A DNA stretch of 64,000 nucleotides from Shimia abyssi (GTDB lineage: Bacteria > Pseudomonadota > Alphaproteobacteria > Rhodobacterales > Rhodobacteraceae), in assembly GCF_003014475.1 (NCBI RefSeq), contig NZ_PYGJ01000012.1, positions 1 through 64,000 of the forward strand. Reading direction: 5' to 3'. A program made the translations under genes and the position numbers. Position 1 is the first letter of the stretch, and the number at the start of each line of letters is the position of its first letter. A model generated the notes under the pieces. It saw only the letters and a program-made list of their open reading frames with translations, ran no database searches and was not told the origin of the DNA. Shown here one piece after another: positions 5,291 through 27,658 of the stretch.

Positions 5291-5472
5291 GCCACCGACC
5301 CCGACCCCGGTCTCGAATTCCCCTGCAGAATTGATTGCGATTAGTGGCGTGATTTCCGTCGGTTGCGGGGTTGCGTTTTGAACTGAGACGCACCGTGGCG
5401 CTGCATTTCCGTGACTATTCTTGAAAGTCTCAGAGACCCAGTTTCGCCGGTGGGGTTTGGGGCAGGTTTCCC

Positions 5473-6287
5473 GGTTCTGTCAGACAAAACTGGCTTGAGA
5501 CGGGCAGGGCGGTTTCGTAGCTTCGTCGGATGGCCAAACCTGATCCATTCCGCTATTTCAAAACGAGCCGTGAGATAATCCGCCTGGCAGTGATGCTGTA
5601 CGTGCGGTTTCCATTATCGCTCCGCAATGTGGAAGATCTGCTGCATGAGCGCGGCATCGATGTGAGCCATGAAGCTGTTAGATTTTGGTGGCATCGGTTC
5701 GGTCCGATGTTCGCGTCCGAGATCAGAAAACGGCGGATTGCGGGCATGAAATCCAGCAAGTGGCGCTGGCATCTGGACGAGGTGTTCGTGAAAATCAACG
5801 GCGAGCGGCATTATCCATGGCGGGCTGTCGATCATGAGGGTGAAGCCCTGGAAAGCTTCGTTACAAAGACACGCGACAAGAAAGCCGCATTGAAATTCTT
5901 AAAGAAAGCAATGCGTAAGCATGGCAGTCCTGACGTGGTCGTGGCGGACGGGCTGGCATCGTATGGCGCGGCTTTGAAGGAGATTGGCGCTGCAGGCAGA
6001 CAGGAAACCGGTCGCTGGTTGAACAACAGGGCCGAGAACTCACGTCTGCCGTTCCGACGACGAGAGCGTGCGATGCTGCGTTTCAGGCGTATGCGAAGTT
6101 TGCAGAAGTTCGCCTCCGTCCACGCTTCAGTCTACAATCACTTTAATCAGAAACGCAGCCTTTCAACGAGACCAAATTTCAAGCTCAACCGCGCCGCCGC
6201 TCTGGCTGAGTGGCGTGGTCTTGACGCGAGTTAATGGACAGTGTCACTGGCCCTTCAGAGACCAGTTCGAATTAGTCTGCCAGCACC
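5473..6287 (+). mobile_element. Complete IS6-type insertion sequence
   Basis: The 815-base element carries an intact transposase gene between imperfect terminal repeats. The left end is GGTTCTGTCAGACAAA, and the right end read on the complementary strand is GGTGCTGGCAGACTAA, with 13 of 16 positions matching. Eight bases either side (GGTTTCCC and CACGTTGC) do not match, so no target duplication remains. This is common where IS6 elements have recombined or formed cointegrates. It stands 182 bases after the degenerate copy; those intervening bases hold nothing I recognise. Confidence 0.85.
5530..6234 (+). CDS. IS6-family DDE transposase, intact
   Basis: This 234-residue transposase has the full IS6 architecture. 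An N-terminal helix-turn-helix region contains FPLSLRNVEDLLHERGIDVS (about 30-50), then the DDE core. The catalytic residues are visible as Asp in WRWHLDEVFVKI (near 82), Asp in VVVADGLASYG (near 140) and Glu in NNRAENSRLPFRR (near 170). Members move by replicative cointegrate formation and can mobilise DNA lying between two direct copies. This is the only uninterrupted transposase in the window, so it is the one candidate that could act in trans on the broken copies, though its terminal repeats differ somewhat from theirs. Confidence 0.92.
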   Translation: MAKPDPFRYFKTSREIIRLAVMLYVRFPLSLRNVEDLLHERGIDVSHEAVRFWWHRFGPMFASEIRKRRIAGMKSSKWRWHLDEVFVKINGERHYPWRAVDHEGEALESFVTKTRDKKAALKFLKKAMRKHGSPDVVVADGLASYGAALKEIGAAGRQETGRWLNNRAENSRLPFRRRERAMLRFRRMRSLQKFASVHASVYNHFNQKRSLSTRPNFKLNRAAALAEWRGLDAS

Positions 6288-6417
6288 CACGTTGCTGCAA
6301 TTTGCACTCTGGGCTCATACGGGACCTTAGCTGGATGATACCTGAAGGGCCGGTGAGCGGGACAAACCATCCCTTCGTTGTGTCAATACCAAGGTCTGCT
6401 TCAAGTCTAGCTTGGAG

Positions 6418-7818
6418 TCAGTCCGGGTTTGAGTGGGGTGTTCGTTGTTCGGTGGGCGCATTTCCAGCGATACGCCCCAAAGCCGCCGCGGCCAGCAGGC
6501 CGTTTCCGGATAGATACCCACTATCTCCACGACCGGACACACCGCAGGCAGCGCCGCCGCCAGCGAACAGATTGGGGATCGGCAAACCGTCGCGGGTGAT
6601 GACCCGCGCCGAGTTGCCAACACGCAAGCCCCCCTGTGTGTGAAACAGCGCGCCGGTTACTCGCACGCCGCAATAGGGTGGCGCAAGGCGGGTCTTTCCG
6701 AAGACGCGGCCAAAGCTATCCGTGCCAGCCGCTGGGAGACTGTCTATGGTTCCCCCGAGCGCGTCAGCAGGCAGGCCAAGGGCGACGGCCAGTTCGTCCA
6801 GCGAGTTGGCGGTTTTGATCACGCCCTGCGCTTCGGCGCGTTTGAAATCTTCGAACTGCCGCGCGATTTCGGCGATGCGCGCGTCAAAGATGGCAAAGGC
6901 CTCGCCGCCGGGTTGCGACAGCACGGCGCGGGCCGCCTCGGAATAGCCTTGCGCCTCGTTCCAGAAACGCTTTCCTGCGCGGTTCACTTGCACACCGCCT
7001 TCGGTAATCGTGGCCCAGGTGATGAGGATACCGTGGGGATGGGCCACGTTGCCATGGCCCTGATAGGCGCCCAGATGCTGGGTTGCCGCGCCAATCTGAT
7101 CGGCCCAAAGCACGGCCTCGCCTCGGTTGCCATCATGGCCAAACCAAAGGCCGCTTTCGATCTCAGGCATATGCTGGGCCACCAGCGCGCGGTTGCCGCC
7201 AAAGCCGTTGCAGGCAAGGATCAGGCGCTTGCAGCCGATGGTTTCCACCCCGCCATCGGGGCGTCGCGCAGCGATACCATGCACCAGGCCGCCAGTAAAA
7301 TATAGCGTCTCGGCACGGCGTCCGCAGATGATGTCGATGCTTGCACGCTCGGCGGCGCTGCGCAGTGCGTCGATCAGTTCGGCACCCGCGCGCGTTGGCA
7401 GCCCGTGCATGCGGCGGCTGGAATGGCCGGGATAATCAAAATCATCGACGACCGAGAAGGGCAGCCCATGCGTATCGGTGAGCCAGTCGATCACTTCGGC
7501 GGCATTCTGCGCCATGAGATCAACAAGCTCCTGATCGTTCTCGCCATGGGCCTTGGCCTGAATATCTGCTGCGAACTGCGCCGGGTTGTCGTCTATGCCG
7601 GCCGCCTGTTGCAGCTTCGTTCCTGCCGCTGGGATCAGCCCAGCCGAAAGCGCGGTGGAACCTGAAGGGACGGCATCGGCTTCAATCACCAAAACCTCTT
7701 GGCCAGCCTCCTTGGCCGAGAGCGCGGCAATCAGCCCACAGGCGCCCGCGCCAATAATCAAGAGCTCTACCTCAAGATCAAAGCTATCGGGGGGTGGTTT
7801 AACTGTCGGAGCCGTCAT
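6418..7818 (-). CDS. FAD-dependent oxidoreductase, fumarate reductase flavoprotein-like
   Basis: This protein of about 466 residues opens with a Rossmann FAD site, LIIGAGACGLIAALSA (about 18-33), preceded by a short leader. It ends with the C-terminal FAD contact block GDSGYLSGNGLLAAAALGR. Overall it resembles the fumarate reductase/succinate dehydrogenase flavoprotein and 3-ketosteroid dehydrogenase group, which add or remove hydrogens across a C-C bond next to a carbonyl. There is no signal peptide. Start ATG at 7818 is preferred because GGGG lies just upstream, although an ATG at 7830 is also possible. It is the last gene of the leftward cassette A operon and overlaps the lyase gene. The physiological role is presumably oxidation or reduction of a pathway intermediate; substrate unknown. 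Its end lies 130 bases from the IS at 6287. Confidence 0.82.
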   Translation of the reverse strand: MTAPTVKPPPDSFDLEVELLIIGAGACGLIAALSAKEAGQEVLVIEADAVPSGSTALSAGLIPAAGTKLQQAAGIDDNPAQFAADIQAKAHGENDQELVDLMAQNAAEVIDWLTDTHGLPFSVVDDFDYPGHSSRRMHGLPTRAGAELIDALRSAAERASIDIICGRRAETLYFTGGLVHGIAARRPDGGVETIGCKRLILACNGFGGNRALVAQHMPEIESGLWFGHDGNRGEAVLWADQIGAATQHLGAYQGHGNVAHPHGILITWATITEGGVQVNRAGKRFWNEAQGYSEAARAVLSQPGGEAFAIFDARIAEIARQFEDFKRAEAQGVIKTANSLDELAVALGLPADALGGTIDSLPAAGTDSFGRVFGKTRLAPPYCGVRVTGALFHTQGGLRVGNSARVITRDGLPIPNLFAGGGAACGVSGRGDSGYLSGNGLLAAAALGRIAGNAPTEQRTPHSNPD

Positions 7819-8665
7819 ACCGCGCCCCATTTTTTAACATTTCGTCGGTCCCGATCACGCCGTTAAGGCCGCCGAAATCAAACATCCGGTCGGCAAAGGG
7901 CTTGTTCGAGCCGTTGCCGGCCAGGCTCTGGTAATAGTCCTGCGCGGTGCGGGCCAGTGCACGGACAATGCCACCGGGAAAGATCACGATGGAAAACCCT
8001 AGGTTTTCAAGGTCATCCGCACCAGTGATCGGCGTGGCTCCGCCTTCAACCATATTAGCCAGAAGCGGCACGCGCTCCGCAAAGCGCGCTGCGATCTGTT
8101 CCAATTGCGCGCGGTTTTGTGGCGCCTCGATGAATAGCACATCTGCGCCTGCTTCAAGATAGGCCTCGGCGCGGTCTTCGGCGGCGGCAAAACCTTCGAC
8201 GGCAATCGCATCGGTGCGCGCAATGATCAGCGTTTCGTCCGAAGCCCGAGCATCGGCCATCGCGGAAATCTTGCCGACCATTTCCGGGGCCGGGATGAGC
8301 GATTTATCCGCCAGGTGCCCGCAGCGCTTCGGATAGGTCTGATCCTCCATCTGTAGCGCCGAGGCGCCGGCCCGCTCATAGAGCCGCATTGTACGCTGCG
8401 CGTTGAGTGCATTGCCAAAGCCTGTGTCGGCATCAATGATCACCGGCAGCGCGGTGCGATCGGCGATGAGCGTCATCGTATCGGCCATCTCGGAAGCCGT
8501 AGTAAGGCCAATGTCGGGCCGCCCCAACCGCGTGTAGGCCACGGCCGCACCGCTGAGGTAGAGCGCCTCAAACCCTGCCGCCTCGGCGAGTGATGCTGTC
8601 AGCCCGTCAAAAACTCCGGGCGCGACAACGATTTCCTTGTTCTGAAGACGTGTCCCGAGGCTCAT
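7799..8665 (-). CDS. Isocitrate lyase/PEP mutase superfamily lyase
   Basis: This 288-residue TIM-barrel protein contains VIIDADTGFGNALNAQRTMR (metal-binding Asp region, about 85-104), QMEDQTYPKRCGHL near 120, and IARTDAIAVEGF near 160. The KRCGH motif carries the catalytic Cys that marks C-C lyases (isocitrate, 2-methylisocitrate, 2,3-dimethylmalate lyases) rather than phosphonate mutases. Expected chemistry is Mg-dependent retro-aldol cleavage of a 2-hydroxy diacid to an oxo acid plus a carboxylic acid. Oxaloacetate decarboxylase-type activity also exists in this group. The start overlaps the upstream stop as ATGA, indicating translational coupling. Together with the LeuC/LeuD-like genes across the divergent promoter it could cleave a substituted malate. 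The exact substrate is not predictable from sequence. Confidence 0.85.
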   Translation of the reverse strand: MSLGTRLQNKEIVVAPGVFDGLTASLAEAAGFEALYLSGAAVAYTRLGRPDIGLTTASEMADTMTLIADRTALPVIIDADTGFGNALNAQRTMRLYERAGASALQMEDQTYPKRCGHLADKSLIPAPEMVGKISAMADARASDETLIIARTDAIAVEGFAAAEDRAEAYLEAGADVLFIEAPQNRAQLEQIAARFAERVPLLANMVEGGATPITGADDLENLGFSIVIFPGGIVRALARTAQDYYQSLAGNGSNKPFADRMFDFGGLNGVIGTDEMLKNGARYDGSDS

Positions 8666-9282
8666 GACGTGCCCTCGATCAAGGCCAGTGCATCGGCGCA
8701 GCTCATCTGCTGAGTCACCGTGCCCAGCGACAAGAGCGTAGCGTCGTGCACCTCTGGTTTGAAGGCGGCGCAGCCATCTGTCAGAATCACGGTTTCAATG
8801 TTGCGCAGATGCGCATCGCGCAACGTAGAGGCTACACCGCCATTGGTGACGATGCCCCCAACGATAAGATGGTCGATCCCAACGGCGCGCATCAGGTATT
8901 CCAGCCGGGTCTGGTAGAAGGCTGAATAAGCCACTTTTTCGATCACGAAATCTGCAGGCTGGAGCGTATCCACTAGCGCATGCCCAAAGCTACCCGGCGC
9001 AAAATCACCCTTACCCAGAAAAGGGCGTAACTCCTTGAGATGTGGCGCAATCAGCGGCTCGCCGTCCTTGTCAGGAACCAGCGTAAACTGCGCCGAGAAG
9101 TAGCGCCCACCCCTAGCCCGCAGCGCCCGCGCCAGCGGCGCAATGCGATCGGGCAGGTCCGCAATGCTTTCTGCGGCCTGGCCGGCGCGGCCATAGGCGC
9201 CCTTAGGGTGAATAAAATCATTCTGCAAGTCAATCGTCAGAAGTGCCGTGCGTGAGATATCCCAAGTGGCTGGATTGCTCAT
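8662..9282 (-). CDS. Isochorismatase-fold hydrolase lacking the usual cysteine
   Basis: This 206-residue protein has the isochorismatase (cysteine hydrolase) fold. The Asp is present in ALLTIDLQNDFIHPKGAYG and the Lys in FVIEKVAYSAFYQTRL. The nucleophile block normally reads TNxCV, but here it reads GGIVTNGGVASTLRDAH, so Gly replaces the catalytic Cys. DNA reading AAT GGC GGT GTA confirms this. Amidases of the family (nicotinamidase, maleamate amidase) need that Cys, while true isochorismatases such as EntB and PhzD also lack it and hydrolyse an enol ether. So this may cleave a vinyl-ether-like bond, or may be an amidase that has lost activity. Both gene ends overlap the neighbours as ATGA. 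Confidence 0.85.
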   Translation of the reverse strand: MSNPATWDISRTALLTIDLQNDFIHPKGAYGRAGQAAESIADLPDRIAPLARALRARGGRYFSAQFTLVPDKDGEPLIAPHLKELRPFLGKGDFAPGSFGHALVDTLQPADFVIEKVAYSAFYQTRLEYLMRAVGIDHLIVGGIVTNGGVASTLRDAHLRNIETVILTDGCAAFKPEVHDATLLSLGTVTQQMSCADALALIEGTS

Positions 9283-11342
9283 GATACGTCCTCCAAGGGT
9301 TCGATGATGGTGTTGCCAAACTGATCGACTCGGCCCTGTAAATCGGGTTCGATAAGCACCGTGGTGTCAGGCTGCGTGAGGATCGCGGGGCCCTTGATGA
9401 CAGTTCCCACAGGTAGAGCAAGCCGATCATAGATCGCCGTGGAATACCAGCCTTCGGCGAAATGCACCTGCCTCTGGCCCGTAGGCTCGGCCGAGCCGGT
9501 CCCGGACGGGGCTAGAGCGCTCAGGTCGAACTTTGGTCGCTTGCCGGTCACGGCGCTGCGCAGGTTCAGGATACGTCGCACCCCGTTCTGCAAGAGCCTG
9601 CCAAAGGTTGCGCGGTAGGCGGAATCAAAGGCCTCTTCAATCTCGGTGCGTGTCGGAGCAGCGACCCTACCACCCACCGTTTTCACGGTTAGAGGAACCG
9701 ACACGGTATGCGTCTGCCCGATATAGGCCATGTCGAGCTCGAAGCTCAGCTCACGCGCTTCGAATTTGGTACGGGCGGCATCAAGCAGCGCCATTCCCTG
9801 ATCGGCATGATCCTGCATGAAAGCACCTAGTGCTGTCTCATCAAGCGTGTCCACCAGCGAGTTGATTGTCTGTACGAAATCCTGCCGCATATCGGCAATT
9901 ACACATCCCATGGCCGATGTGACCCCGGGATAACGCGGCACGATGGCCCGCGAGATGCCCACTTCGACCAGCATCGCACCTGCATGGAGCGCGCCACCAC
10001 CTCCAAACGGCATGAAGGCAAAGCGCTTGGGATCAAAGCCGCGCTCGATGCTAACAAGGCGGATCGCGCCCGCCATGCGGCTGTTGGCGACCTTGAGTAT
10101 CGCCTCGGCGGCGTCCACCGTGGAAAGCCCCAGTGGGCCGCCGACATGTTCATCAATTGCCCGGCTTGCCGCGTCCACATCCAACCGGTCAAGTTTGCCG
10201 CCGATGGGATTGTCCGGATCGATCCGGCCCAGGACTACATTGGCGTCAGTCACCGTCGGGCGGGTGTTTCCAAGGCCATAAGCTACGGGGCCGGGGTTGC
10301 TGCCGGCGCTTTCGGGGCCGATGTTGAGCAACCCGCCCTTGTCGACCCAGGCAATAGATCCCCCCCCCGCGCCGATGGTGGTGATCTCGATCATCGGGTT
10401 TCGCACGACCATACCGAAATCAATCGAGGTCTGTGGCGCCAACATGGATTGCCCTTCGGCAATCAGGGAAACGTCAAAACTCGTCCCGCCCATATCGCCA
10501 GTGATGATATTCTCGAACCCGGCCGACCCAGCGATATAGCCCGCGGCGATCACCCCAGCCGCAGGGCCAGAAAGCGCCGTACGCACGGGAAGACGGCAAG
10601 CGGTGTCCACGGCCATGACGCCGCCATTGGATTGAACGATCATGAATTCGCCATCGAACCCGCCCGCCTTGAGTGCGTTTTCAAGCCGCCCCAGATAGCC
10701 CGACACCTCGGGCTGCAAATAGGCGTTGAGCGCGGTGGTCGAGAAGCGCTCGAACTCGCGGATTTCGGGCAAAATCTCGGAGGATGCCGACACATGTTCA
10801 TTGTGCCAGACCTCGCGCAGCGCTGCGACTGCAGCGTCTTCGTTGGCGGTATTAGCGTAGGAATTGGCAAACAAAATCGCCACGCCTTCGCAGCCTTGTG
10901 CCTGCAGTGTTTTGGCAGCGGCGCGTACGGCCTCAAGATCCACAGGGGTGCGCACAGTGCCATCGGCCAGGGTGCGTTCCGGCACCTCGAGACGGTTGCG
11001 ACGGTCCACTACGGGTTCGAAGTCGCCGCGCAGTCCCCATGTGCGCGGCCTGTCGCGGCGGCGCATTTCCAGCACATCGCGCAGACCTTCGGTGCAGATC
11101 ACACCTGTTTTCGCGCCCTTGCGTTCCAGAAGCGCGTTCGTGCCCGCTGTGGTACCATGCACCACCACAGCAATCTCGGACAGGTCCTGAACCTCGCGCC
11201 CGATTCCGTCGAGGAAACCGCTCGATTGGTCGGGCCGTGTTGTTGGAACCTTGGCAACGCTTGCCGTGCCTTCGGCCTCATTCAAAACGAAGACATCAGT
11301 AAATGTGCCGCCCACATCGACACCGATCATTCGGCTGCTCAT
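9279..11342 (-). CDS. hyuA: HyuA-type hydantoinase/oxoprolinase subunit (ATP-dependent)
   Basis: This protein of about 687 residues is a HyuA (N-methylhydantoinase A/5-oxoprolinase alpha) homologue with an ASKHA ATPase fold. Landmarks are IGVDVGGTFTDVFVLNE at the N-terminus (phosphate 1), VVHGTTAGTNALLERKG near 65, and GDMGGTSFDVSLIAEG near 290 (phosphate 2). Family members couple ATP hydrolysis to opening of cyclic amides or imides (oxoproline, N-methylhydantoin, caprolactam) or, in acetone and acetophenone carboxylases, to carboxylation. Start ATG at 11342 overlaps the hyuB stop as ATGA. It must work with the HyuB partner just upstream. The substrate cannot be read from sequence. Confidence 0.9.
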   Translation of the reverse strand: MSSRMIGVDVGGTFTDVFVLNEAEGTASVAKVPTTRPDQSSGFLDGIGREVQDLSEIAVVVHGTTAGTNALLERKGAKTGVICTEGLRDVLEMRRRDRPRTWGLRGDFEPVVDRRNRLEVPERTLADGTVRTPVDLEAVRAAAKTLQAQGCEGVAILFANSYANTANEDAAVAALREVWHNEHVSASSEILPEIREFERFSTTALNAYLQPEVSGYLGRLENALKAGGFDGEFMIVQSNGGVMAVDTACRLPVRTALSGPAAGVIAAGYIAGSAGFENIITGDMGGTSFDVSLIAEGQSMLAPQTSIDFGMVVRNPMIEITTIGAGGGSIAWVDKGGLLNIGPESAGSNPGPVAYGLGNTRPTVTDANVVLGRIDPDNPIGGKLDRLDVDAASRAIDEHVGGPLGLSTVDAAEAILKVANSRMAGAIRLVSIERGFDPKRFAFMPFGGGGALHAGAMLVEVGISRAIVPRYPGVTSAMGCVIADMRQDFVQTINSLVDTLDETALGAFMQDHADQGMALLDAARTKFEARELSFELDMAYIGQTHTVSVPLTVKTVGGRVAAPTRTEIEEAFDSAYRATFGRLLQNGVRRILNLRSAVTGKRPKFDLSALAPSGTGSAEPTGQRQVHFAEGWYSTAIYDRLALPVGTVIKGPAILTQPDTTVLIEPDLQGRVDQFGNTIIEPLEDVS

Positions 11343-13033
11343 GCTGTGACCTCTCGCCATTGCGTGCCATATGCGGCATCTGCTTCTGCGCCGCTTACCA
11401 GTCCTCGCGCAACATCGCGGGCCACGGTTTTGGGATCTCGCTCGGACGCCACGCCGTAGCCGCCGCCGCCCGGCGTTTCAAGCCGCACAGCTTGTCCCGG
11501 CTTGAGCTTGATGCCGCGCATCTTCGAGGCCAGTGGTGGGCTGTGCCAGCCGTCATCCTGCTCATAGGTGAAGGCGTTAAGCGCGGCATCGCCGCCGCCG
11601 GCAATCCCCTTGGGAGCAAAGCGCCCGCGTTCGCCGAAGAGGAACGCCTCGGCGCCGTTTTCTTCCAGTACCTCGATCTCGTAGACCGCGCCAAGCCCGC
11701 CGCGATGTGCACCCGCACCGGCGCTGTCGGGGCGCAGTGCCCATTTGCGGAACATGACGGGATAGGCTGCCTCGAGGATCTCCATAGGCGGGATCGTGGC
11801 GGTCGAAATGGGCGCATTGCCGTGGTTGAGCCCGTCGGTTTCAACTGACCCTCCATGGCCGCCGCCATAGAAGGAGAACATGACCCATGGCTGGCCATTG
11901 CTGCGCTTGCCGGCGATGGAAAGCGCATTGATGGTGCCATAGGCGTTGGCGACGACACGCTCGGGTGCGGCCTTCGCGAAGGCAGAAAAGACCACGTCGA
12001 TCATCCTCAGGATGGTTTCGGTATAGCCGCCTGTGGGCGCGGGGAACTGCGCGGCCAAAAGGCTACCCTCGGGCACGATCACATCAATGGGCCGCATTAC
12101 GCCTGCATTGGCAGGCAGCGCGGGAAAGACGTGTTTGATGGCCACATAGGCGGTCGCCACGGTTGTCGGCACAGCGATGTTCACAGGGCCAGCGCATTGC
12201 GGCGAAGACCCGGTGAAATCAAGCGTCATTTCATCGTCTTTGATCTCAAGCGCGATCTTGATCTTTAGTGGTTCGTCGGTGATGCCGTCATTGTCTAGGT
12301 AATCCTCGGCCTCCCAGCGGCCATCGGGCAAATCGGTCAACTCTGACCGCATCAACGCCTCTGCGCGGTGGCCGAGTGCCGCAAGCGCAGCGGTGATCGT
12401 CTCCGCTCCGTATTCATCCAGTAGTTCGTCCATCCGCTTGACGCCCAGATCCAGCGCGCCAAGCTGGCCATTGAGATCGCCCATGGCCGATTGCGGCAGG
12501 CGCGTGTTGCGCAAGAGAATGTCGATGATGTCCTGATTAATTTCGCCTTTTCGGGCGAGCTTCACAGGCGGTAGGTTGAACGCTTCTTGGAATACATCGG
12601 TCGCCGCCGGGTTGTAGTTGCCCGGCACAGCGCCGCCCACGTCATGCCAGTGGCCGACAGAAGCGAGATAGCAAAAAAGCTTGCCATCGTGGAAGTAAGG
12701 CCGCACGAGACGCATGTCCGACAGGTGCGTGCCGCCGATGTGGGCATCGTTGAAGATGTAGATGTCGCCATCTTCCAGATCGCCATCCCTGGCGGCCTTT
12801 TCGATCACGGCTTTCACCGCAAAGGACATGACGCCCACGAAAATGGGCAAGCCCGATTTCCCTTGCACGAGCGTATCGCCCGACACTGCGTGATAGATCC
12901 CGTGACTAGCATCATGCGCCTCAGCGATGATCGGATTGAAGGCCGCGCGAAACAGAGTAGCGTCCATCTCGTCTGCGATCTGCTCCATGCGGCCCGCAAG
13001 AACCGACAGGGTAATTGGGTCAATCTCGCTCAT
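11339..13033 (-). CDS. hyuB: HyuB-type hydantoinase/oxoprolinase subunit
   Basis: This protein of about 564 residues matches the hydantoinase B/oxoprolinase family along its length. It starts MSEIDPITLSVLAGRMEQIA and contains the family blocks GDIYIFNDAHIGGTHLSDMR (about 100-119), GHWHDVGGAVPGNY near 140 and the C-terminal ETPGGGGYGVASERD. The C-terminal subunit forms the cyclic-substrate active site together with HyuA. Start ATG at 13033 is chosen because it overlaps the upstream stop as ATGA and has GAGGG seven bases before it. Together hyuBA would perform the ATP-dependent step of cassette A. Whether this is lactam/imide hydrolysis or carboxylation is open. Confidence 0.9.
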   Translation of the reverse strand: MSEIDPITLSVLAGRMEQIADEMDATLFRAAFNPIIAEAHDASHGIYHAVSGDTLVQGKSGLPIFVGVMSFAVKAVIEKAARDGDLEDGDIYIFNDAHIGGTHLSDMRLVRPYFHDGKLFCYLASVGHWHDVGGAVPGNYNPAATDVFQEAFNLPPVKLARKGEINQDIIDILLRNTRLPQSAMGDLNGQLGALDLGVKRMDELLDEYGAETITAALAALGHRAEALMRSELTDLPDGRWEAEDYLDNDGITDEPLKIKIALEIKDDEMTLDFTGSSPQCAGPVNIAVPTTVATAYVAIKHVFPALPANAGVMRPIDVIVPEGSLLAAQFPAPTGGYTETILRMIDVVFSAFAKAAPERVVANAYGTINALSIAGKRSNGQPWVMFSFYGGGHGGSVETDGLNHGNAPISTATIPPMEILEAAYPVMFRKWALRPDSAGAGAHRGGLGAVYEIEVLEENGAEAFLFGERGRFAPKGIAGGGDAALNAFTYEQDDGWHSPPLASKMRGIKLKPGQAVRLETPGGGGYGVASERDPKTVARDVARGLVSGAEADAAYGTQWREVTA

Positions 13034-13596
13034 GCATTCGCCCTCACTTCGGCCATGTCGTTCCATACATCCTGCCGTGTGATCCTGCCGCCGGTGATCT
13101 CGAAACGATCCACGAAACGAATACCTTCAAAGGTGCTGCCATCGTGGTATTCGCCTTGCAGCATGCCGCGGCAATAGACGATGGCGGCATCCCCCACGCC
13201 CTGCATAGCATCAAACCCGTCATACGTCTTCGTGACAAATTTATAACGCGGTTTTGACCATTCGATCAGTTCTTCCAGCGTGCGCATGGGCGCTGTTCCA
13301 GGGAAGGTCATGGCAAAGCCGTCCCCCAGCATGGCGCGCGCCGTTTCCAGTTTGCGGGCCTCCATCGCGGCGAGGTAGTCTTTCACGATCTGCGCTGGAT
13401 CCGGGAGCGCGGGCGCGGGGCTGCGCTGTATGCGGCCACGATAGTAATTGTCTGTTGGCACATCATGGATCATCACCGTCACAAGCTCCGGCGCGGCGGG
13501 GATGACGAATCGCACCGCATCCGTCAAAACTTCGCTTAGACGTTGTTTTTCCAGAGAATTATAGCCTTCAAGAACATGCAATTCGACGATCGGCAT
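13030..13596 (-). CDS. 4-oxalocrotonate tautomerase domain fused to a SnoaL-like domain
   Basis: This protein of about 188 residues joins two small domains. Residues 1-60 (MPIVELHVLEGYNSLEKQRL onwards) look like the 4-oxalocrotonate tautomerase family, in which Pro1, exposed after Met removal, is the catalytic base. Residues from about 68 (DPAQIVKDYLAAMEARKLET) to the end form a SnoaL/NTF2-like domain with a typical FVDRFEITGGRITRQDVWND ending. Start ATG at 13596 is chosen over a TTG at 13608 because it places Pro at position 2 and has GGGGGA upstream. It is the first gene of the leftward cassette A operon. The fusion suggests keto-enol isomerisation and binding of a small carboxylic intermediate; the exact role is unknown. 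Confidence 0.8.
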   Translation of the reverse strand: MPIVELHVLEGYNSLEKQRLSEVLTDAVRFVIPAAPELVTVMIHDVPTDNYYRGRIQRSPAPALPDPAQIVKDYLAAMEARKLETARAMLGDGFAMTFPGTAPMRTLEELIEWSKPRYKFVTKTYDGFDAMQGVGDAAIVYCRGMLQGEYHDGSTFEGIRFVDRFEITGGRITRQDVWNDMAEVRANA

Positions 13597-13740
13597 GGCT
13601 TCCCCCAATGTTCAATTGGTATTATCTGTAATACAAATAATGTATCTTACCAGAAAAAAAATTTGGATATCTGAAATACTAATACTTGCTTTTGAATGTA
13701 ACATATCTACCCTCCACTGAGAAATACGGGGGAATCACAG
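13597..13740. promoter_or_regulatory. Divergent promoter region with probable GntR operators
   Basis: This A+T-rich gap separates the two divergent cassette A operons. It contains a perfect inverted repeat GTATTA-TCTG-TAATAC at 13619-13634 and a direct repeat of the form TCTGnAATACnAATA at 13625 and 13670, 45 bases apart. Such repeats beside a GntR/HutC gene are good candidate binding sites for the adjacent regulator, which could then control both directions. The GTG start of the regulator at 13741 has GGGGGAA a few bases upstream. The repeats are seen directly; their use as operators is inference. Confidence 0.55.
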
Positions 13741-14541
13741 GTGCGGGCGGAAGCTGTCCAAATACTGCCAGAGGGGGTCAAGGCGCGGCGCGTTTACCTT
13801 TCTCTGCGCGATCAGATCACCGGTGGTGTTTTGCGCGATGGTGAGACCTTGCCAGGCGAACAAAAGCTTGCCGAAACCTTTGGGGTCAGCCGTGTCACCG
13901 TGCGTCGCGCGCTTGATGCGCTGGCCCAAGGCGGCCTGATTGAGCGGCGCGCAGGCAGCGGCACCAAAGTGCGTGCGCGCCCCGCCAACGGCCAGGCAGC
14001 CGCGATGGATTTCACAACGCTGATGCCGCAGCTGGTCGAGATGGGCCAGAAAACCACAGCGCGGCTCTTGTCGTTTTCTTATGGCCGCGCGCCTGATTTC
14101 GTGGCCTCCGCCATGCGGCTTGGCGGCGAAAGCAAGGTCCAGATCGCCACGCGCGTGCGCCTCACGGGGGACGTGCCGTTCTCTCATCTCACAACCTACG
14201 TGCCGGCCCAGATCGCGCAGAACTATTCCGAGAATGACCTTGCGACGACGCCGCTGTTCAAGCTTTTGGAACGTAGCGGCGTGCAGATCGAAGAGGCACA
14301 TCAATCGGTGAGCGCCACGCTTGCGGGTCCGGATGTGGCCGAGGCGCTTGAGGTCGATGTCGGCTCGGCGCTTCTTTCGCTGCGCCGTGTCGTTCGCGAC
14401 ATCGAAGGCAATGGCGTTGAATATCTCTCGGGGCTTTACCGCCCGGATATGTTCCGTCTTGAAATGCCACTTACCCGCGTCGGCCAAGGCGCCGCGCGCC
14501 ATTGGGAGCCGGCGATTGGTCAGAGCGAGGGAGAGGGCTGA
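13741..14541 (+). CDS. GntR-family transcriptional regulator with UTRA domain
   Basis: This 266-residue protein starts with GTG. Residues about 15-80 are a GntR winged helix (ARRVYLSLRDQITGGVLRDG, then KLAETFGVSRVTVRRALDAL). From about residue 100 the protein looks like a UTRA ligand-binding domain of the HutC subfamily, ending with EYLSGLYRPDMFRLEMPL. HutC-type regulators usually repress nearby catabolic genes and release DNA when a pathway metabolite binds. It lies between the divergent operons and overlaps the leuC-like start as TGATG, so it is cotranscribed with the hydro-lyase and TRAP genes. It is therefore likely autoregulated and the local regulator of cassette A. Confidence 0.88.
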   Translation: MRAEAVQILPEGVKARRVYLSLRDQITGGVLRDGETLPGEQKLAETFGVSRVTVRRALDALAQGGLIERRAGSGTKVRARPANGQAAAMDFTTLMPQLVEMGQKTTARLLSFSYGRAPDFVASAMRLGGESKVQIATRVRLTGDVPFSHLTTYVPAQIAQNYSENDLATTPLFKLLERSGVQIEEAHQSVSATLAGPDVAEALEVDVGSALLSLRRVVRDIEGNGVEYLSGLYRPDMFRLEMPLTRVGQGAARHWEPAIGQSEGEG

Positions 14542-15947
14542 TGCACACCCCGCAGACCATGCTCGACAAGCTTTGGGCCGCGCATGAGGTGCTGCAACGC
14601 GAAGATGGCGTTTCGCTGCTCTGGGTCGATCGGCATCTTGTGCATGAGGGCTCGCATCACGCTTTCGCCAAGATAAAGGAACGTGGCTTGCCCGTGGCCG
14701 AACCGTCGCTCACCTTCGCAGTGGTCGATCACTACGCGCCAACGCAGGGCCGCTCAAGGATCGCCGACCCCCAGATCGCGCGGATGATCGACACTCTGCG
14801 CAGCAATGCCAACATCCATGGCTTGCGGCTCTATGATCTTGCCGATCCGCATCAGGGCATCGTGCATGTTCTGGGGCCGGAAGAGGGGCTCACGCTGCCG
14901 GGCCTGCTGGTCAACTGCGGTGATAGCCATACGTCCACCCATGGGGCTTTCGGCGCGCTGGCCTTTGGGATTGGCGCGACCGAGGTGGCCCATGTTCTAG
15001 CCACGCAAACGGTCTGGCAGCGCAAGCCTAAAGCCATGCGCATCACCGTTGATGGCGCACTTGGCGCAGGCGTCACGGCCAAGGATATCGCGCTTGGGTG
15101 GATCGCCAAGTTGGGCACGGACGGTGCACAGGGCCATGCGGTCGAATACGGGGGCAGCACGATCCGGGGCCTTTCGATGGAGGGCCGAATGACGCTATGC
15201 AATCTGTCGATTGAAGGCGGCGCGCGTTTGGGCATGGTGGCACCGGACGAGACAACGTTTGCCTATCTTGAAGGTCGCCGTTTTTCGCCCAAAGGCGCGG
15301 ATTGGCATGCTGCTTGCGCCGATTGGGCAGGGATTGCCAGCGACGAATACGCGCGCTTTGATCGCGAGGTCACGCTCGACGCCGCCGAGATCTCCCCCAA
15401 TGTCACGTGGGGCACAAGCCCCGAACAGGCGGTACCTATCAGCGCGACCATCCCCGATCCCACCGATGTGCCGCCCGATAAGGCCGAAGCCGCTCGCGCG
15501 GCGCTTGATTACATGGGGCTGAAGGCGGGAGAGATGCTTGAAGGCACACCTATTGATCAGGTCTTTATCGGCTCTTGCACAAACGGGCGGATCGAAGATT
15601 TGCGAGCCGCAGCCGCCGTACTAAGGGGGCGCAAAGCCAAAGTTCCAGGGCTTATCTCGCCCGGCTCGACACAGGTCAAAGCGCAGGCCGAAGCCGAAGG
15701 GCTTGACCGGGTCTTTATCGAGGCAGGCCTTGATTGGGTCGCCTCTGGCTGTTCAATGTGCGTGGGCATGAACGGCGATCTTGTGGGAGAGGGCAAGCGC
15801 TGCGCCTCGTCCACCAATCGCAATTTCAAAGGCCGTCAAGGCCGCGGAGCGCGGACCCATCTGATGAGCCCGGCCATGGTTGCCGCCGCTGCGGTGACAG
15901 GTGCGCTTACCGATGTGCGCCCGTTTCTTGAAGGACGGGTGAACTGA
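14541..15947 (+). CDS. LeuC-like aconitase-family hydro-lyase, large subunit
   Basis: This 468-residue protein matches the 3-isopropylmalate dehydratase large subunit family. The 4Fe-4S cluster ligands are visible as one Cys in IGSCTNGRIEDLRAAA (near 350) and two in GCSMCVGMNGD (near 410). It also has NCGDSHTSTHGAFGALAFG near 130. The family hydrates or dehydrates 2- or 3-substituted malates and maleates. Cotranscription with GntR and a TRAP transporter, and absence of leuB or other leucine genes, argue that this copy is catabolic, for example a substituted-maleate hydratase like dimethylmaleate hydratase. Strict isopropylmalate isomerase function is the less likely alternative. The start overlaps the gntR stop, and the leuD-like gene overlaps its own stop. 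Confidence 0.85.
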   Translation: MHTPQTMLDKLWAAHEVLQREDGVSLLWVDRHLVHEGSHHAFAKIKERGLPVAEPSLTFAVVDHYAPTQGRSRIADPQIARMIDTLRSNANIHGLRLYDLADPHQGIVHVLGPEEGLTLPGLLVNCGDSHTSTHGAFGALAFGIGATEVAHVLATQTVWQRKPKAMRITVDGALGAGVTAKDIALGWIAKLGTDGAQGHAVEYGGSTIRGLSMEGRMTLCNLSIEGGARLGMVAPDETTFAYLEGRRFSPKGADWHAACADWAGIASDEYARFDREVTLDAAEISPNVTWGTSPEQAVPISATIPDPTDVPPDKAEAARAALDYMGLKAGEMLEGTPIDQVFIGSCTNGRIEDLRAAAAVLRGRKAKVPGLISPGSTQVKAQAEAEGLDRVFIEAGLDWVASGCSMCVGMNGDLVGEGKRCASSTNRNFKGRQGRGARTHLMSPAMVAAAAVTGALTDVRPFLEGRVN

Positions 15948-16558
15948 TGACAGGGTGGCGCACACACAAGGGCAAGGTGCTTGGCCTGGCGGTCGCGAAT
16001 ATTGACACCGATCAGTTAATCCCGGCGCGCTTTATGTCCGTGCCGCGCGCTGAGGGCTACGGATCTTACCTGTTGCACGATATGCGCCGCGGCGAAACCG
16101 GAGAGCCGCGCGTGGATTTCCCGCTTAATGTCCACCCAGAGGCAAGCGTGATCCTTGCAGGGCGCAATTTCGGTAGCGGCTCTTCGCGCGAGGCAGCGGT
16201 TTATGCGCTTGTCGATGCCGGTATCCGCGCGGTCATCGCGCCTGGTTTCGGCGACATCTTTGCCGCCAATGCCATCAACAACGGCCTACTGCCGGCCAAG
16301 GTCGACGAAGGCAGCTACGCTGCGCTCGACGCGGCACTGGCAAAGGGCCCGCAAGACATCACCATCGATATCGATGCCCGCACTCTCACACTCGGAGCCC
16401 TTCAGGTCTGCTTCGCGCTTGATGACAGCTGGGCGACCAAGCTCATCAATGGCTGGGATGACATCGATCTCACGCGCAATCATAGCGCGGCGATCACAGC
16501 GTTCAAACACATCCGCAGTCAAACCGCAGCCTGGGCATGGCCCGCAGCGGCGGATTGA
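15947..16558 (+). CDS. LeuD-like aconitase-family hydro-lyase, small subunit
   Basis: This 203-residue protein is the swivelling small subunit that pairs with the preceding large subunit. Family motifs are NIDTDQLIPARFM (about 22-34) and NFGSGSSREAAVYALVDAG (about 75-93), the substrate-phosphate/carboxylate loop. ATG at 15947 overlaps the upstream TGA, ensuring matched synthesis. Length is normal for LeuD. Substrate specificity in this group depends on a short loop that I cannot interpret reliably here, so its assignment to a catabolic hydratase rests on gene context. It is followed by an 84-base gap and then the TRAP substrate-binding gene. Confidence 0.85.
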   Translation: MTGWRTHKGKVLGLAVANIDTDQLIPARFMSVPRAEGYGSYLLHDMRRGETGEPRVDFPLNVHPEASVILAGRNFGSGSSREAAVYALVDAGIRAVIAPGFGDIFAANAINNGLLPAKVDEGSYAALDAALAKGPQDITIDIDARTLTLGALQVCFALDDSWATKLINGWDDIDLTRNHSAAITAFKHIRSQTAAWAWPAAAD

Positions 16559-16642
16559 AAACGGCCGCAAAACGCGGCAGCCAGGGCCTGAGGAGGGCCA
16601 GACAAACGGGGCATAAGCCCTAATTCATTGGAGGACGACAAG

Positions 16643-17653
16643 ATGAAGATGAAATTACTGGGAAGCCTACTTGCAGGAGCCACGCTCGTTGCGGGCACGC
16701 TCAAAGCAGAAGAGACCATCTCGGCGGTACATGCCTTCCCCGAAACGCTGATCTACACAAAAAGTTTTCTGAGCTTTGTCGATAAGGTCAACGAGGCAGG
16801 CAAAGGCGTGATCCAGATCGATGTGCGCGGTGGCCCCGAGGCGATCGGCATGTTCCAACAACCCGATGCCGTGCGCGATGGTATCGTGGATATGGTTTAC
16901 ACTCCCGGCTCGTTCTATGGTGGCGCCCTGCCCGAAAAAGATGCGATGGTCGCATCCAACCTGACAGCCGTTGAGACACGCGCCAATGGCGGCATTGCCC
17001 TGATCGATCAGATCCATCAGGAAAAGATGGGGCTCAAGTACCTTGGTTGGTTCGACAGCGGCGTCTGCTACAATCTCTGGACACGCAACGAGCCGAAGTT
17101 CGATGCTGATGGCAATCTGGAGGTCGAAGGCCTCAAACTGCGGGGCAACAACGTCTACAACGCATTCTTTACCAACTATCTAGGCGCGCAAGTCATCGAC
17201 CTGCCGACAGGCGAGGTTTACTCCGCGCTCCAGCGCGGCGTCGTGGATGCGACAGGCTGGACGCAGATCGGCCTCATTGACCTCAAGTGGAACGAGTTCC
17301 TCAACTACCGTATCGAGCCGTGTTTCTTCTCGACCGACCTTGGCGTGATCGTGAACAACGAAAAATGGAATTCGCTGTCGGATGATGCCCGGAAAGTCCT
17401 TCAGGACGTGGCGATCCAGCATGAGAAAGACAGCGTTGAAGCCCTTCGCGCCAAGCGTGATGAAGACTTCGCCGCGCTTGATGCGGCGGGCATGAAAGTT
17501 GTCTCGCTCGAAGGCGAAGCCAAGGCCAACTATCTTGCTGCGGCCCGTGAGAAAACGTGGGAACGCATGAAAGAGGTCATGTCAGGCCAGCCCGGCGGCA
17601 CTGGCAACTATGATCGTCTGATCGAGCTCTTCTACGATCTTGGCGCCGAATAA
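16643..17653 (+). CDS. TRAP transporter substrate-binding protein (DctP family)
   Basis: This protein of about 336 residues is a periplasmic solute-binding protein of the DctP type. It begins with MKMKLLGSLLAGATLVAGTL, a secretory signal peptide probably cleaved near AEE, and contains YNLWTRNEPKFDADGNLEVE and LPTGEVYSALQRGVVDATGW. The last segment holds the conserved region that contacts substrate carboxylates. ATG at 16643 has GGAGGA eight bases upstream; a TTG at 16628 is rejected because it includes that ribosome site. It is the first of three TRAP genes cotranscribed with the LeuCD-like enzymes, so its ligand should be the cassette A substrate, probably a carboxylic acid. Identity is unknown. 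Confidence 0.9.
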   Translation: MKMKLLGSLLAGATLVAGTLKAEETISAVHAFPETLIYTKSFLSFVDKVNEAGKGVIQIDVRGGPEAIGMFQQPDAVRDGIVDMVYTPGSFYGGALPEKDAMVASNLTAVETRANGGIALIDQIHQEKMGLKYLGWFDSGVCYNLWTRNEPKFDADGNLEVEGLKLRGNNVYNAFFTNYLGAQVIDLPTGEVYSALQRGVVDATGWTQIGLIDLKWNEFLNYRIEPCFFSTDLGVIVNNEKWNSLSDDARKVLQDVAIQHEKDSVEALRAKRDEDFAALDAAGMKVVSLEGEAKANYLAAAREKTWERMKEVMSGQPGGTGNYDRLIELFYDLGAE

Positions 17654-17710
17654 TAAGCCCCGTCGCAGGCCTGCCAATTGGTGGGCCTTCAACTTCTTTG
17701 GAGCCATGCA

Positions 17711-18211
17711 TTGATCAATACAACCTATAAGGCGCTGCTATACGGCTTAGCCGGCATTTCCGGCCTGATGCTCGTGTGGATTATGGTCTCTGTCATTGCA
17801 TCTGTCGTGATGCGCAACATGGGGATCCAGCCCTTCGCATGGCTCTTTACATCGGCTGAATACGGCCTTCTCTACATGACGATGCTCGGCGCGCCGTGGC
17901 TGGTTCGCGAAAAGGGCCACGTGCATATCGAACTGTTGACTGCCGCCTTGCCTGGTGCCGCCCGTCGCCTTCTTAGCCGCGCCGTGGCCGCCGCCTGCGT
18001 GCTGATCTGCGTGATCCTCACATGGAAAGGAATTGAGCTGGTGATGACCAATATCGAGCGGGGCGATTTCGACACGCGCGCGTATTATTATCCACGCTGG
18101 CTTCTGACCATCGCCTTTCCGCTCTCATTTGGCATGATGGCTGTTGAATTCTCCCGCTTTGTCTTTGGCCGAGAGCTAATGCACAGTGGTGAAGCAGGGA
18201 TACATGAGTAA
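17711..18211 (+). CDS. TRAP transporter small permease (DctQ family)
   Basis: This protein of about 166 residues has four predicted membrane segments: around LYGLAGISGLMLVWIMVSV, the YGLLYMTMLGAPWLVREKGH region, AAACVLICVILTWKG, and WLLTIAFPLSFGMMAVEF. The GAPWLVREKGHVHIELL block is the DctQ signature. Start TTG at 17711 is proposed because TGGAG lies seven bases before it; a GTG at 17678 would add 11 residues and has no clear ribosome site. It links the binding protein and the large permease of the TRAP system. Its stop overlaps the ATG of the large permease gene. Confidence 0.85.
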   Translation: MINTTYKALLYGLAGISGLMLVWIMVSVIASVVMRNMGIQPFAWLFTSAEYGLLYMTMLGAPWLVREKGHVHIELLTAALPGAARRLLSRAVAAACVLICVILTWKGIELVMTNIERGDFDTRAYYYPRWLLTIAFPLSFGMMAVEFSRFVFGRELMHSGEAGIHE

Positions 18212-19518
18212 TGGAATGGTTCGAGGCACTGGCCCTGCTGCTTGGTACGATTTTGCTTCTTATGGCGATCGGAATGCCGATTGCGCTGGCTTTTCTGGCG
18301 GCCAATATCATCGGTGCATGGGTCTTCATGGGTGGCGAACGCGGCGTGATGCAGCTCTTGAACAACGGTCTTGGGGCGCTCACCAAATACGCGCTGATGC
18401 CGATTCCGCTATTCTTGTTGATGGGCGAGATCTTCTTTCACACAGGTCTTGGCGGGCGCATGTTCACCGCCATCGACAAGCTCCTTGGCCGCCTGCCGGG
18501 ACGGCTCAGTTATGTTACGGTTCTGGGCGGCACGGCCTTTTCCACACTCTCTGGCTCATCCATGGGCTCAACAGCGCTTCTGGGCTCTCTCATGGTCCCG
18601 GAGATGAGCCGCCGGGGCTATAAATCACACATGAGTATCGGCCCGATCCTTGGCACCGGCGGCCTTGCGATCATCATTCCGCCCTCGGCTCTGGCCGTGC
18701 TTTTGGCAACCCTGGCGCAGATCGACGTGGCGGCGCTACTCATCGCGGGTGTTATACCGGGGCTGATCCTTGCAGGTTTTTACATTGCGACGATCTGGTT
18801 GCAGACCCGTATCGACCCGACAGCCGCCCCGGCCTATGACGTGGCACCTATGTCATTCCTGTCAAAGCTGGGCCTTTTGCTGCGCGAAGTCATCCCAATG
18901 GTCAGCGTCATGGTCATCATCATCGCGCTGATGATCAGGGGTTTTGTCACCCCCTCCGAGGCCGCCGCCTTTGGCGCGCTCGGCGTGCTGATCCTGGCGG
19001 CAATCTTCCGCTGCCTGACATGGGAGGCGATGAAAAAATCGGTCATCGGTGCGCTCAAGGTCACACTGATGGCCTATCTCATCGTTTTTGGTTCGGCCAC
19101 ATTCAGCCAGCTTCTGGCATTCTCCGGAGCATCGCGCGGGCTTGTGACCTGGGCGACCAACTTTGACCTTGCACCCTTGGCTATGCTGCTGGTGATGTTT
19201 GCCGTGCTTCTTCTTCTCGGCATGTTCATGGAGCAGATCTCGATCATGTTGTTGACGGTGCCGATCTTCTTTCCGCTCGCACAAACGCTTGGCTTTGATC
19301 CGATCTGGTTTGCGCTCATCATGTTGCTTTCTCTGGAGATCAGTTTCACAACACCGCCGTTTGGATTATTGCTGTTCGTGATGAAAGGGGTGGCGCCCGC
19401 AGGAACAACCATGCGCGAGATTTACACCTCGGCGTTTCCGTTCATTTTCTGCTCGCTTTTCTTGGTGGCACTGCTGATCGTCTTTCCGCAATTGGCTCTT
19501 TGGTTACCATCACTCTAA
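18211..19518 (+). CDS. TRAP transporter large permease (DctM family)
   Basis: This 435-residue membrane protein is a DctM homologue with about twelve hydrophobic segments. It has the conserved family blocks PIPLFLLMGEIFFHTGLGGR (about 65-84), LGGTAFSTLSGSSMGSTALL and GTGGLAIIIPPSALAV. It uses the sodium gradient to move ligand delivered by the binding protein. ATG at 18211 overlaps the small permease stop. It is the last gene of the rightward cassette A operon. The sequence beyond it holds only remnants before the next IS, so the operon's right boundary coincides with the cassette boundary. Confidence 0.92.
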   Translation: MEWFEALALLLGTILLLMAIGMPIALAFLAANIIGAWVFMGGERGVMQLLNNGLGALTKYALMPIPLFLLMGEIFFHTGLGGRMFTAIDKLLGRLPGRLSYVTVLGGTAFSTLSGSSMGSTALLGSLMVPEMSRRGYKSHMSIGPILGTGGLAIIIPPSALAVLLATLAQIDVAALLIAGVIPGLILAGFYIATIWLQTRIDPTAAPAYDVAPMSFLSKLGLLLREVIPMVSVMVIIIALMIRGFVTPSEAAAFGALGVLILAAIFRCLTWEAMKKSVIGALKVTLMAYLIVFGSATFSQLLAFSGASRGLVTWATNFDLAPLAMLLVMFAVLLLLGMFMEQISIMLLTVPIFFPLAQTLGFDPIWFALIMLLSLEISFTTPPFGLLLFVMKGVAPAGTTMREIYTSAFPFIFCSLFLVALLIVFPQLALWLPSL

Positions 19519-21098: not shown

Positions 21099-21266
21099 TT
21101 TTTGGCTTTCGCGCCGGGAGGGCAGGCCGAGATGACCGTTCTGTCCATTGTGGTCGGGGCGGATCTGGGTTTTGTGAATGCTCACCACCTCACCCAGATC
21201 GTGCTTGTGATCACTGGGTTACCGATTGTGGCTACGATTATGAGCCGGACCAGACCTCGGGATTAA
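21099..21266 (+). pseudogene. C-terminal fragment of an AbrB-family membrane protein
   Basis: Directly after the IS end, an open frame reads FLAFAPGGQAEMTVLSIVVG followed by ADLGFVNAHHLTQIVLVITG and ends in TAA at 21264-21266. The AFAPGG-AEM-TVL and FV-HH-RI pattern is the C-terminal end of the AbrB (COG3180, ammonia monooxygenase-like) membrane family. Everything upstream was removed at the IS boundary, so it has no start codon of its own. Its last 29 bases overlap the convergent 2-hydroxyacid dehydrogenase gene. It is a clear scar of the rearrangement that installed this IS. Confidence 0.75.
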
Positions 21267-22218: not shown

Positions 22219-22220
22219 GA

Positions 22221-22400: not shown

Positions 22401-22412
22401 TCTTTCGTTCCT

Positions 22413-26355: not shown

Positions 26356-26429
26356 GGGAGCCGCCTTTCTGTTAGGAAATGTTGGCAAGGGCGCGCGATC
26401 GATTGCGGACCGCGCGCCGAAAAGGTCGC

Positions 26430-27518: not shown

Positions 27519-27658
27519 TGGTTCCTCCCTGGTGACCAGACAAACACAAGGGCGTCCTCTTCGCCAGTGCGCAAGCCATATGAATTCTTGGGGTTGATTC
27601 CCCCTTCGATCCAACGATCATGGGAGGCCAACCTTGCGTGAACCTTGCGGAACCGAAA

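Follow-up and report, generated by a model that had tools for sequence, protein, structure and literature searches.

In a 64,000-nucleotide stretch of a Shimia abyssi contig (hereafter the window), we found that positions 6418–19518 hold a catabolic cassette (cassette A) of twelve genes arranged as two divergent operons and built from known enzyme families. From its gene content, on which every reaction, product and substrate proposed below is based, we suggest that it serves to import a carboxylic acid bearing an N-heterocycle (imide or lactam), of hematinic type, and to open it completely, down to pyruvate and glutarate, a reading to which we give a probability of about 0.4. Its parts stand unequally firm: the general scheme of ring opening, hydration and cleavage by a lyase is well supported and probably correct, the end in glutarate and pyruvate is less well supported and has a little under an even chance, and the hematinic-type substrate, only the leading hypothesis for the exact compound, is tentative. 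The genes and the candidate regulatory site between them are the following.

6418–7830, minus strand: FAD_binding_2 flavoprotein, fumarate-reductase/TcuA-like (Pfam, NCBIfam); start at 7830 or 7818.
7799–8665, minus strand: lyase of the isocitrate lyase (ICL)/phosphoenolpyruvate mutase superfamily, with KRCGH (Pfam, NCBIfam, structure relatives).
8662–9282, minus strand: isochorismatase-fold protein with Gly149 at the Cys position, Asp18 and Lys116 kept (Pfam, alignment).
9279–11360, minus strand: HyuA, ATP-binding subunit of a cyclic amidase (Pfam, NCBIfam); start at 11360 or 11342.
11339–13066, minus strand: HyuB, second subunit of the cyclic amidase (Pfam, NCBIfam, structure relatives); probable start at 13033.
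13030–13596, minus strand: 4-oxalocrotonate tautomerase-SnoaL fusion (Pfam), open frame to 13608, conserved start MP at 13596.
13618–13635, no strand: probable GntR operator, an inverted repeat in the divergent promoter region.
13741–14541, plus strand: GntR/UTRA (HutC-like) regulator (Pfam, NCBIfam).
14502–15947, plus strand: LeuC-like hydratase large subunit (Pfam, NCBIfam); probable start at 14541.
15947–16558, plus strand: LeuD-like hydratase small subunit (Pfam, NCBIfam).
16628–17653, plus strand: TRAP solute-binding protein (Pfam DctP).
17678–18211, plus strand: TRAP small permease (Q), by homology to an annotated TRAP gene.
18211–19518, plus strand: TRAP large permease (M), by homology to an annotated TRAP gene.

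The left operon runs from the tautomerase-SnoaL fusion through HyuB, HyuA, the isochorismatase-fold protein and the lyase to the flavoprotein, with ATGA overlaps at its first four junctions (that of HyuB and HyuA only if HyuA starts at 11342), while the right operon encodes GntR, LeuC, LeuD and the TRAP transporter (P/Q/M), with one-base overlaps between GntR and LeuC and between LeuC and LeuD. A preliminary description of this DNA had reported a divergent GntR locus with ATGA overlaps, and both its gene positions and its family assignments were recovered. The inverted repeat between the operons has perfect arms GTATTA/TAATAC at 13619–13634 (consensus TGTATTA-N4-TAATACA) and is probably the GntR operator, since, among the 81 upstream regions examined, one from the window and 80 from the named loci, 28 contain GTATTA-N4-TAATAC arms.

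The gene set is genuine and occurs widely, and no published account of it came up in the searches made. One genome per species was scanned with the tautomerase-SnoaL protein, which confirmed 485 stretches encoding its relatives; the best 80 of these, including one identical pair (L075 and L076), form the named loci. Gene frames in these relatives came from a codon-based open reading frame caller, which still yields some antisense frames. All twelve genes were found in the same order in 58 of the 80 loci and the six-gene left operon in order in 72; seven of the remaining eight lie on contigs ending within 5 kb downstream, and the eighth (L138) lacks the set. The two members of the identical pair are filed under Roseobacter and under a Flavobacteriia metagenome-assembled genome, the latter probably contaminated.

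A wider sample was centred on the isochorismatase-fold protein, for which alignment searches covered three overlapping draws: 385 genomes from the class of the window, with 29 matched, 398 from its phylum, with 8, and 200 from the family to which the genome G725, from another class, belongs, with 6. The three weakest matches (G336, G011 and G160; L234–L236), with no HyuAB near them, were removed before counting, leaving 38 loci from 37 genomes, the window's included. As contig ends cut some stretches and genes more than ~10 kb away are missed, the counts are lower bounds: at least 34 loci hold HyuA, 34 HyuB, 30 the lyase, 29 a hydratase and 23 the flavoprotein, to which the preliminary description gave no role, against 5 with the fusion, 4 with CaiB and 3 with glutaryl-CoA dehydrogenase (GcdH). 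HyuA, HyuB, the isochorismatase-fold protein, the flavoprotein, a hydratase and the lyase occur all together in 21 of the 38. The core thus consists of HyuAB, the Cys-less isochorismatase-fold protein, the flavoprotein, a hydratase and the lyase, and the SnoaL protein often accompanies it; this, together with the order kept among the named loci, is the conservation elsewhere on which the preliminary description had made its interpretation depend.

The association of lyase and hydratase with HyuAB extends beyond a single class, and named carriers include marine Roseobacter-group bacteria as well as Azospirillum and Paraburkholderia, genera of soil or plants. A plasmid of Azospirillum oryzae carries the core set with an ABC importer and no fusion within the stretch, and a Paraburkholderia plasmid carries HyuAB, the isochorismatase-fold protein, a DmdB-type LeuCD and the lyase in a stretch without flavoprotein or fusion. 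Hydratase type and transporter are exchangeable between cassettes, the importers being of TRAP, branched-chain-amino-acid-type ABC or TctC type. The catabolic set first described, a hydratase and a KRCGH lyase alongside HyuAB and an importer, is therefore borne out by co-occurrence across genomes, with an importer of varying type. In the open-licence literature, no paper describing this gene set was found among the matches listed, which is weak evidence of absence.

HyuAB has the domain composition of a cyclic amidase (Hydantoinase_A N, middle and C domains, and Hydantoinase_B, in adjacent genes), and in both family and structure searches it comes closest to caprolactamase and N-methylhydantoinase, members of the same ATP-dependent family. 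It differs from caprolactamase CapAB in scoring below the equivalog cut-offs (500 and 325 bits vs 1000, NCBIfam) and in being embedded in a hydratase-lyase set. Carboxylase equivalogs were also missed (ApcC 310 vs 1500, ApcA 191 vs 1250 and ApcD 139 vs 1500 bits), and the twelve cassette genes include no further carboxylase subunit. HyuAB is thus hydrolase-like rather than carboxylase-like in its scores, in agreement with the ring-opening role initially given to it.

The absence of the catalytic Cys from the isochorismatase-fold protein, already remarked in the preliminary description, proved general among the proteins aligned, with Gly at this position in 8 of 8 and 9 of 9 (overlapping sets). 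The best NCBIfam match of this protein is RutB. With RutB and the maleamate amidohydrolase NicF, it shares the fold and the proposed place after ring opening, but their catalytic Cys is replaced by Gly in all nine cassette proteins of the larger set. True isochorismatases also lack the Cys and have Gly at that position. As the Cys is lost while Asp18 and Lys116 are kept, the cassette protein should act by acid-base chemistry, on an enamine or on a carboxylate-assisted amide.

Hydratases are exchanged among cassettes between LeuCD, a homoaconitase (HacA)/DmdAB type and an MmgE/PrpD type; because the families swap while a hydratase stays, this points to hydration as a fixed step of the pathway. 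The window's LeuCD scores above the TIGR00170 and TIGR00171 cut-offs (628 vs 560 and 141 vs 116 bits), and the host holds further LeuC/LeuD pairs on contigs C9 and C3, so that the cassette pair is not the genome's only candidate for leucine biosynthesis (the C9 LeuC match crosses one TGA, yet a 474-residue frame was called there). The C3 pair (L239) has TRAP genes and a gene resembling four-carbon acid sugar kinases nearby, the latter recognised from its sequence start only. Among relatives, the two small subunits scanned exceed the TIGR02087 LeuD/DmdB cut-off of 109 (L154, 152 bits; L045, 173 bits), and DmdB-type subunits also match homoaconitase models, below their cut-offs. Across 27 loci with such a subunit (25 distinct, as L045/L208 and L051/L218 overlap), the Arg of the homoaconitase motif YLRT is replaced by Lys in 25, which suggests an extra carboxylate on the substrate.

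A parallel survey covered 124 loci with a lyase at least 50% identical, some overlapping one another and some shared with the small-subunit survey. Their K[KR]CGH loop reads KRCGH in 116 and KKCGH in 8; the position of E. coli PrpB F186 is F in 124 of 124, and that of L234 is I (123) or V (1), a combination presumably typical of pyruvate-accepting lyases. The window's lyase falls below the PrpB methylisocitrate lyase cut-off (TIGR02317, 292 vs 354 bits), and its solved relatives include 2,3-dimethylmalate lyase (3fa3) and oxaloacetate acetylhydrolase. No evidence was found in these analyses for oxaloacetate, the other product initially offered, and the preliminary interpretation, upheld for the conserved set and the hydrolase-like HyuAB, accordingly stands in part. 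The flavoprotein shares the FAD_binding_2 fold and several substrate-binding residues with TcuA and flavocytochrome c fumarate reductase (Fcc3), those aligned with the Fcc3 positions H365, T377, R402 and H504 being kept, while the TcuA equivalog cut-offs are missed (156 vs 369 and 120 vs 373 bits).

The clue to glutarate came from additional genes in two lineages. On plasmid pTM2 of Tistrella mobilis, the cassette reads GntR, HyuB, HyuA (a frame unannotated but matched), isochorismatase-fold protein, acyl-CoA dehydrogenase, CaiB, LeuC and LeuD. By similarity the dehydrogenase is a GcdH (619.9 bits to 1sir), and CaiB scores best against the succinate--glutarate CoA-transferase model (533 bits here and 532 bits in a second scan, both short of the 750 cut-off). 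In GcdH the motifs YEGTHD and GYRS are kept. Among the 66 named loci with enough downstream sequence, ten of Marivita type, seven of which bear the name Marivita, have this pair at the end of the operon; in L100 the frames of flavoprotein and dehydrogenase share 14 bases. A third cluster, in G247, includes a CaiB 74% like that of Tistrella, its GcdH being elsewhere. When proteins of 45 loci were clustered into families (kept if present in at least three, Marivita L100 and Tistrella L153 being added by choice), GcdH and CaiB stood out as the sole additional catabolic enzymes that we recognised across cassette lineages, apart from a xanthine-dehydrogenase-like family (3 loci). We count two independent recruitments of GcdH/CaiB, and glutarate rests on these two lineages.

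On the pathway that we propose, HyuAB would use ATP to open the ring, and the Cys-less enzyme would release the nitrogen, probably by Asp/Lys acid-base catalysis, aided by a neighbouring carboxylate (amic acid) or by way of enamine protonation, an analogue of the vinyl ether protonation performed by true isochorismatases. If the substituted succinate or saturated triacid needs desaturating, the flavoprotein may do so; in genomes that have the tautomerase-SnoaL protein, a move or turn of the double bond may be its task. LeuCD (elsewhere a DmdAB/homoaconitase-type or MmgE/PrpD enzyme) would hydrate a 2-methyl-homoaconitate-like triacid, which the PrpB-like lyase would cleave to pyruvate and glutarate, the latter entering glutaryl-CoA dehydrogenase metabolism. 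Taken together, the GcdH/CaiB genes, the pyruvate-type lyase residues and the Lys at the homoaconitase Arg position in relatives suggest a one-carbon-longer homologue of the lower methylcitrate pathway. With that half of the cycle (AcnB/AcnD with PrpD, then PrpB), it would share the hydration of a 2-methyl tricarboxylate and a PrpB-like cleavage to pyruvate and a dicarboxylate, and MmgE/PrpD proteins also occur in some cassette clusters; it would differ in yielding glutarate instead of succinate and in its entry by ring opening instead of citrate synthase, and its lyase scores below the PrpB equivalog.

For a PrpB-type lyase to give pyruvate and glutarate, its substrate must be 2-hydroxy-2-methyl-3-(2-carboxyethyl)succinate, whose alkene is open hematinic acid and whose saturated parent is open dihydrohematinic acid. 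Hematinic acid is a classical product of haem and bilins, and dihydrohematinic acid of chlorophyll ring D; these methyl/carboxyethyl imides would be the natural N-heterocycles with the best-fitting skeleton. The flavoprotein would have a use on a saturated imide, and the SnoaL protein on an isomer whose double bond is misplaced. Maleimides from tetrapyrroles had previously been put forward as a speculative substrate class, which is strengthened because the hydrated hematinic-acid skeleton would yield pyruvate and glutarate, in keeping with the glutarate enzymes recruited in two lineages; the compound itself stays a prediction. The marine, soil and plant carriers live where such pigment fragments would arise. 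Hematinic acid is reported from leaves, and ring D is described as hydrogenated in chlorophylls other than chlorophyll c (PMC7318184). The most detailed version, a bacterial mineralisation of hematinic or dihydrohematinic acid via 2-methylhomoisocitrate to pyruvate and glutarate, with a Cys-less enzyme exploiting the substrate's own carboxylate, is somewhat doubtful. Were the substrate right, the cassette would explain how bacteria use the last ring fragments and give marker genes for this flux; the yearly synthesis and breakdown of chlorophyll are on the scale of 10^12 kg (PMC7318184). Even with another substrate, it would define a catabolic module of six enzymes that can be reused, together with a family of isochorismatase-fold proteins without the Cys; relatives of the fusion are common, and the set is found on plasmids of Sulfitobacter and flanked by insertion sequences (IS) in the window.

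Several observations weigh against this proposal. GcdH and CaiB are absent from most cassettes, the window's included, and the three loci of the wider sample with GcdH all belong to one genus, that of Tistrella. In Marivita S6314 the same pair stands apart from the cassette (L242), and the operon copy is the sole GcdH in 5 of the 6 Marivita-type genomes searched, so that in Marivita a housekeeping pair could by chance have come to stand beside the cassette; Tistrella and G247, sharing a cluster architecture, may count as one lineage. The Lys argument does not apply directly to the window, whose LeuD is bacterial-type with ARFM in that region, and two relatives (L166 and L168) have His at the Lys position. 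The flavoprotein residue aligned with Fcc3 R544 is not Arg, a difference from TcuA and fumarate reductase that makes plain succinate an unlikely substrate, and an already unsaturated hematinic acid would need no flavoprotein. Imides hydrolyse without ATP, so HyuAB favours a lactam at least as much. The closest solved relative of the TRAP binding protein is 4mnc, whose ligand is benzoylformate. No tetrapyrrole gene was noticed beside the cassettes, no search having been aimed at such genes. Finally, despite its strong co-occurrence with the set, any role for the tautomerase-SnoaL protein is a guess.

The domains of this protein lie just above the Pfam cut-offs (Tautomerase 26.7 vs 22, SnoaL_2 28.8 vs 27 bits), with a conserved Pro after the start Met; a full-length solved relative (PDB 9mua, 9mup) was deposited as Tautomerase, and the single paper listed under these codes deals with crystallisation methods and, judged by title and abstract, has no bearing on it. 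A fusion or SnoaL match anywhere in the genome was found in 16 of 26 genomes with a strong isochorismatase-fold match vs 13 of 359 others (odds ratio 43, Fisher p 3e-14, with no correction for common descent; the two class draws compared appear to be the same 385 genomes). Among these 16 genomes, 11 match over the full fusion and 5 over the SnoaL part only, and the other 10 of the 26 have no fusion match. The tautomerisation invoked in the preliminary description is therefore possible, not universal. A merely accessory status, suggested by its presence in 5 of 38 loci, was dropped, since the gene often lies just outside the stretches (12–13 kb away in four genomes) or on another contig; this left the probabilities given here as they were.

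Among the alternatives, a methyl-less substrate, from which flavoprotein and hydratase would make homoisocitrate and the lyase glyoxylate and glutarate, is unlikely: it draws on the same GcdH/CaiB evidence, on the homoaconitase matches of DmdB-type subunits (below cut-offs) and on a natural role for the TcuA-like flavoprotein, but the lyase pocket has residues of pyruvate type in all 124 loci, and we know of no natural N-heterocycle of that skeleton. A shorter substrate has a similarly small chance. In the lower nicotinate pathway of Eubacterium barkeri, a dimethylmaleate hydratase is followed by a dimethylmalate lyase, likewise a LeuCD/DmdAB-type hydratase and an ICL-superfamily lyase, and on this model a dimethyl- or alkylmaleate-like acid would be hydrated and cleaved to pyruvate and a monocarboxylic acid. 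The DmdB-type subunits of relatives (both tested above TIGR02087) and the dimethylmalate lyase 3fa3 agree with it, but it leaves GcdH/CaiB unexplained and sits poorly with the Lys of 25 of 27 recognition motifs; moreover, that pathway is not known to include HyuAB, a Cys-less isochorismatase-fold protein or such a flavoprotein, and none of its other genes was recognised in the cassettes looked at.

A six-membered lactam route seems rather improbable. HyuAB would open a tetrahydro-6-oxonicotinate-like enamide lactam, the isochorismatase-fold enzyme would hydrolyse the enamine to 2-formylglutarate, and the lyase would yield glutarate and formate by retro-Claisen cleavage; this accounts for HyuAB, the Cys-to-Gly change and glutarate, with oxaloacetate acetylhydrolase as a lyase relative and xanthine-dehydrogenase-like genes near a few loci, but it leaves LeuCD/PrpD and the flavoprotein without a role, and the hydroxylase-like family occurs in only 3 of 45 loci. 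An acetone/acetophenone-carboxylase-like HyuAB, carboxylating a ketone or enol made by the tautomerase, is very improbable, the homology of Apc/Acx subunits and the co-occurrence of the fusion being outweighed by the caprolactamase and N-methylhydantoinase matches, the lack of an extra carboxylase subunit and the 10 of 26 genomes without a fusion match. Equally improbable is an already known route, be it for 5-oxoproline, hydantoin, N-methylhydantoin/creatinine or caprolactam, whose neighbouring genes are unrelated to it; HyuAB family membership agrees with this, but not the missed caprolactamase cut-offs, the Cys-less partner hydrolase or the recurrence of lyase and hydratase in more than one class; hydantoin, creatinine and oxoproline routes were rejected as sole explanation because hydratase and lyase travel with HyuAB. 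A link to homarine was considered as well, and nothing for it was found among the literature matches listed.

The cassette is probably mobile. Its closest named relatives (L068–L071) share 93–94% of HyuB with the window, the same twelve genes stand in the same order on the three Sulfitobacter plasmids examined, and IS copies flank it. Sulfitobacter pontiacus DSM 110277 is one strain with the cassette on its plasmid.

4480–6288, plus strand: two IS copies left of the cassette, at about 4480–5290 and 5477–6288, alike to the right-hand copy.
20289–21097, plus strand: IS copy right of the cassette, in the same orientation as the left copies.

Left and right copies are 70–80% alike and might bound a compound mobile unit. 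We take them to be IS6-family members; the right-hand frame (20339–20830) scores 25.4 bits with the IS240 DDE model, a weak match below the cut-off of 27, and a search for an IS-end pattern gave one match, no more than chance. The G+C content of the cassette (0.57–0.63 in 2-kb windows over 6–18 kb) exceeds that of most of the window, 24–28 kb also reaching 0.59–0.61.

Further along the window, a second uptake and catabolic unit (21238–29727) encodes a D-2-hydroxyacid dehydrogenase, a universal stress protein, a PrpF-family protein, a TctA transporter, a 420-residue protein without Pfam match and a two-component system. Among the 80 named loci, the cassette has an octopine-dehydrogenase-like neighbour in 7, a 3-hydroxyacyl-CoA-dehydrogenase (HCDH)-like one in 7 and a HisC-like one in 5, and the HisC-like gene also matches at 42% in L041; we treat them as a neighbouring unit and not as part of the cassette. 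The first two adjoin it in L084–L088, L103 and L112, some of which add a second related TRAP system, an aminotransferase or an Asp/Glu racemase. In L054 and L055, a related lyase and tandem SnoaL domains lie near UbiX-like, CoA-transferase-like and CaiB-like genes (the first two labels resting on sequence starts only), perhaps a different pathway sharing the lyase.

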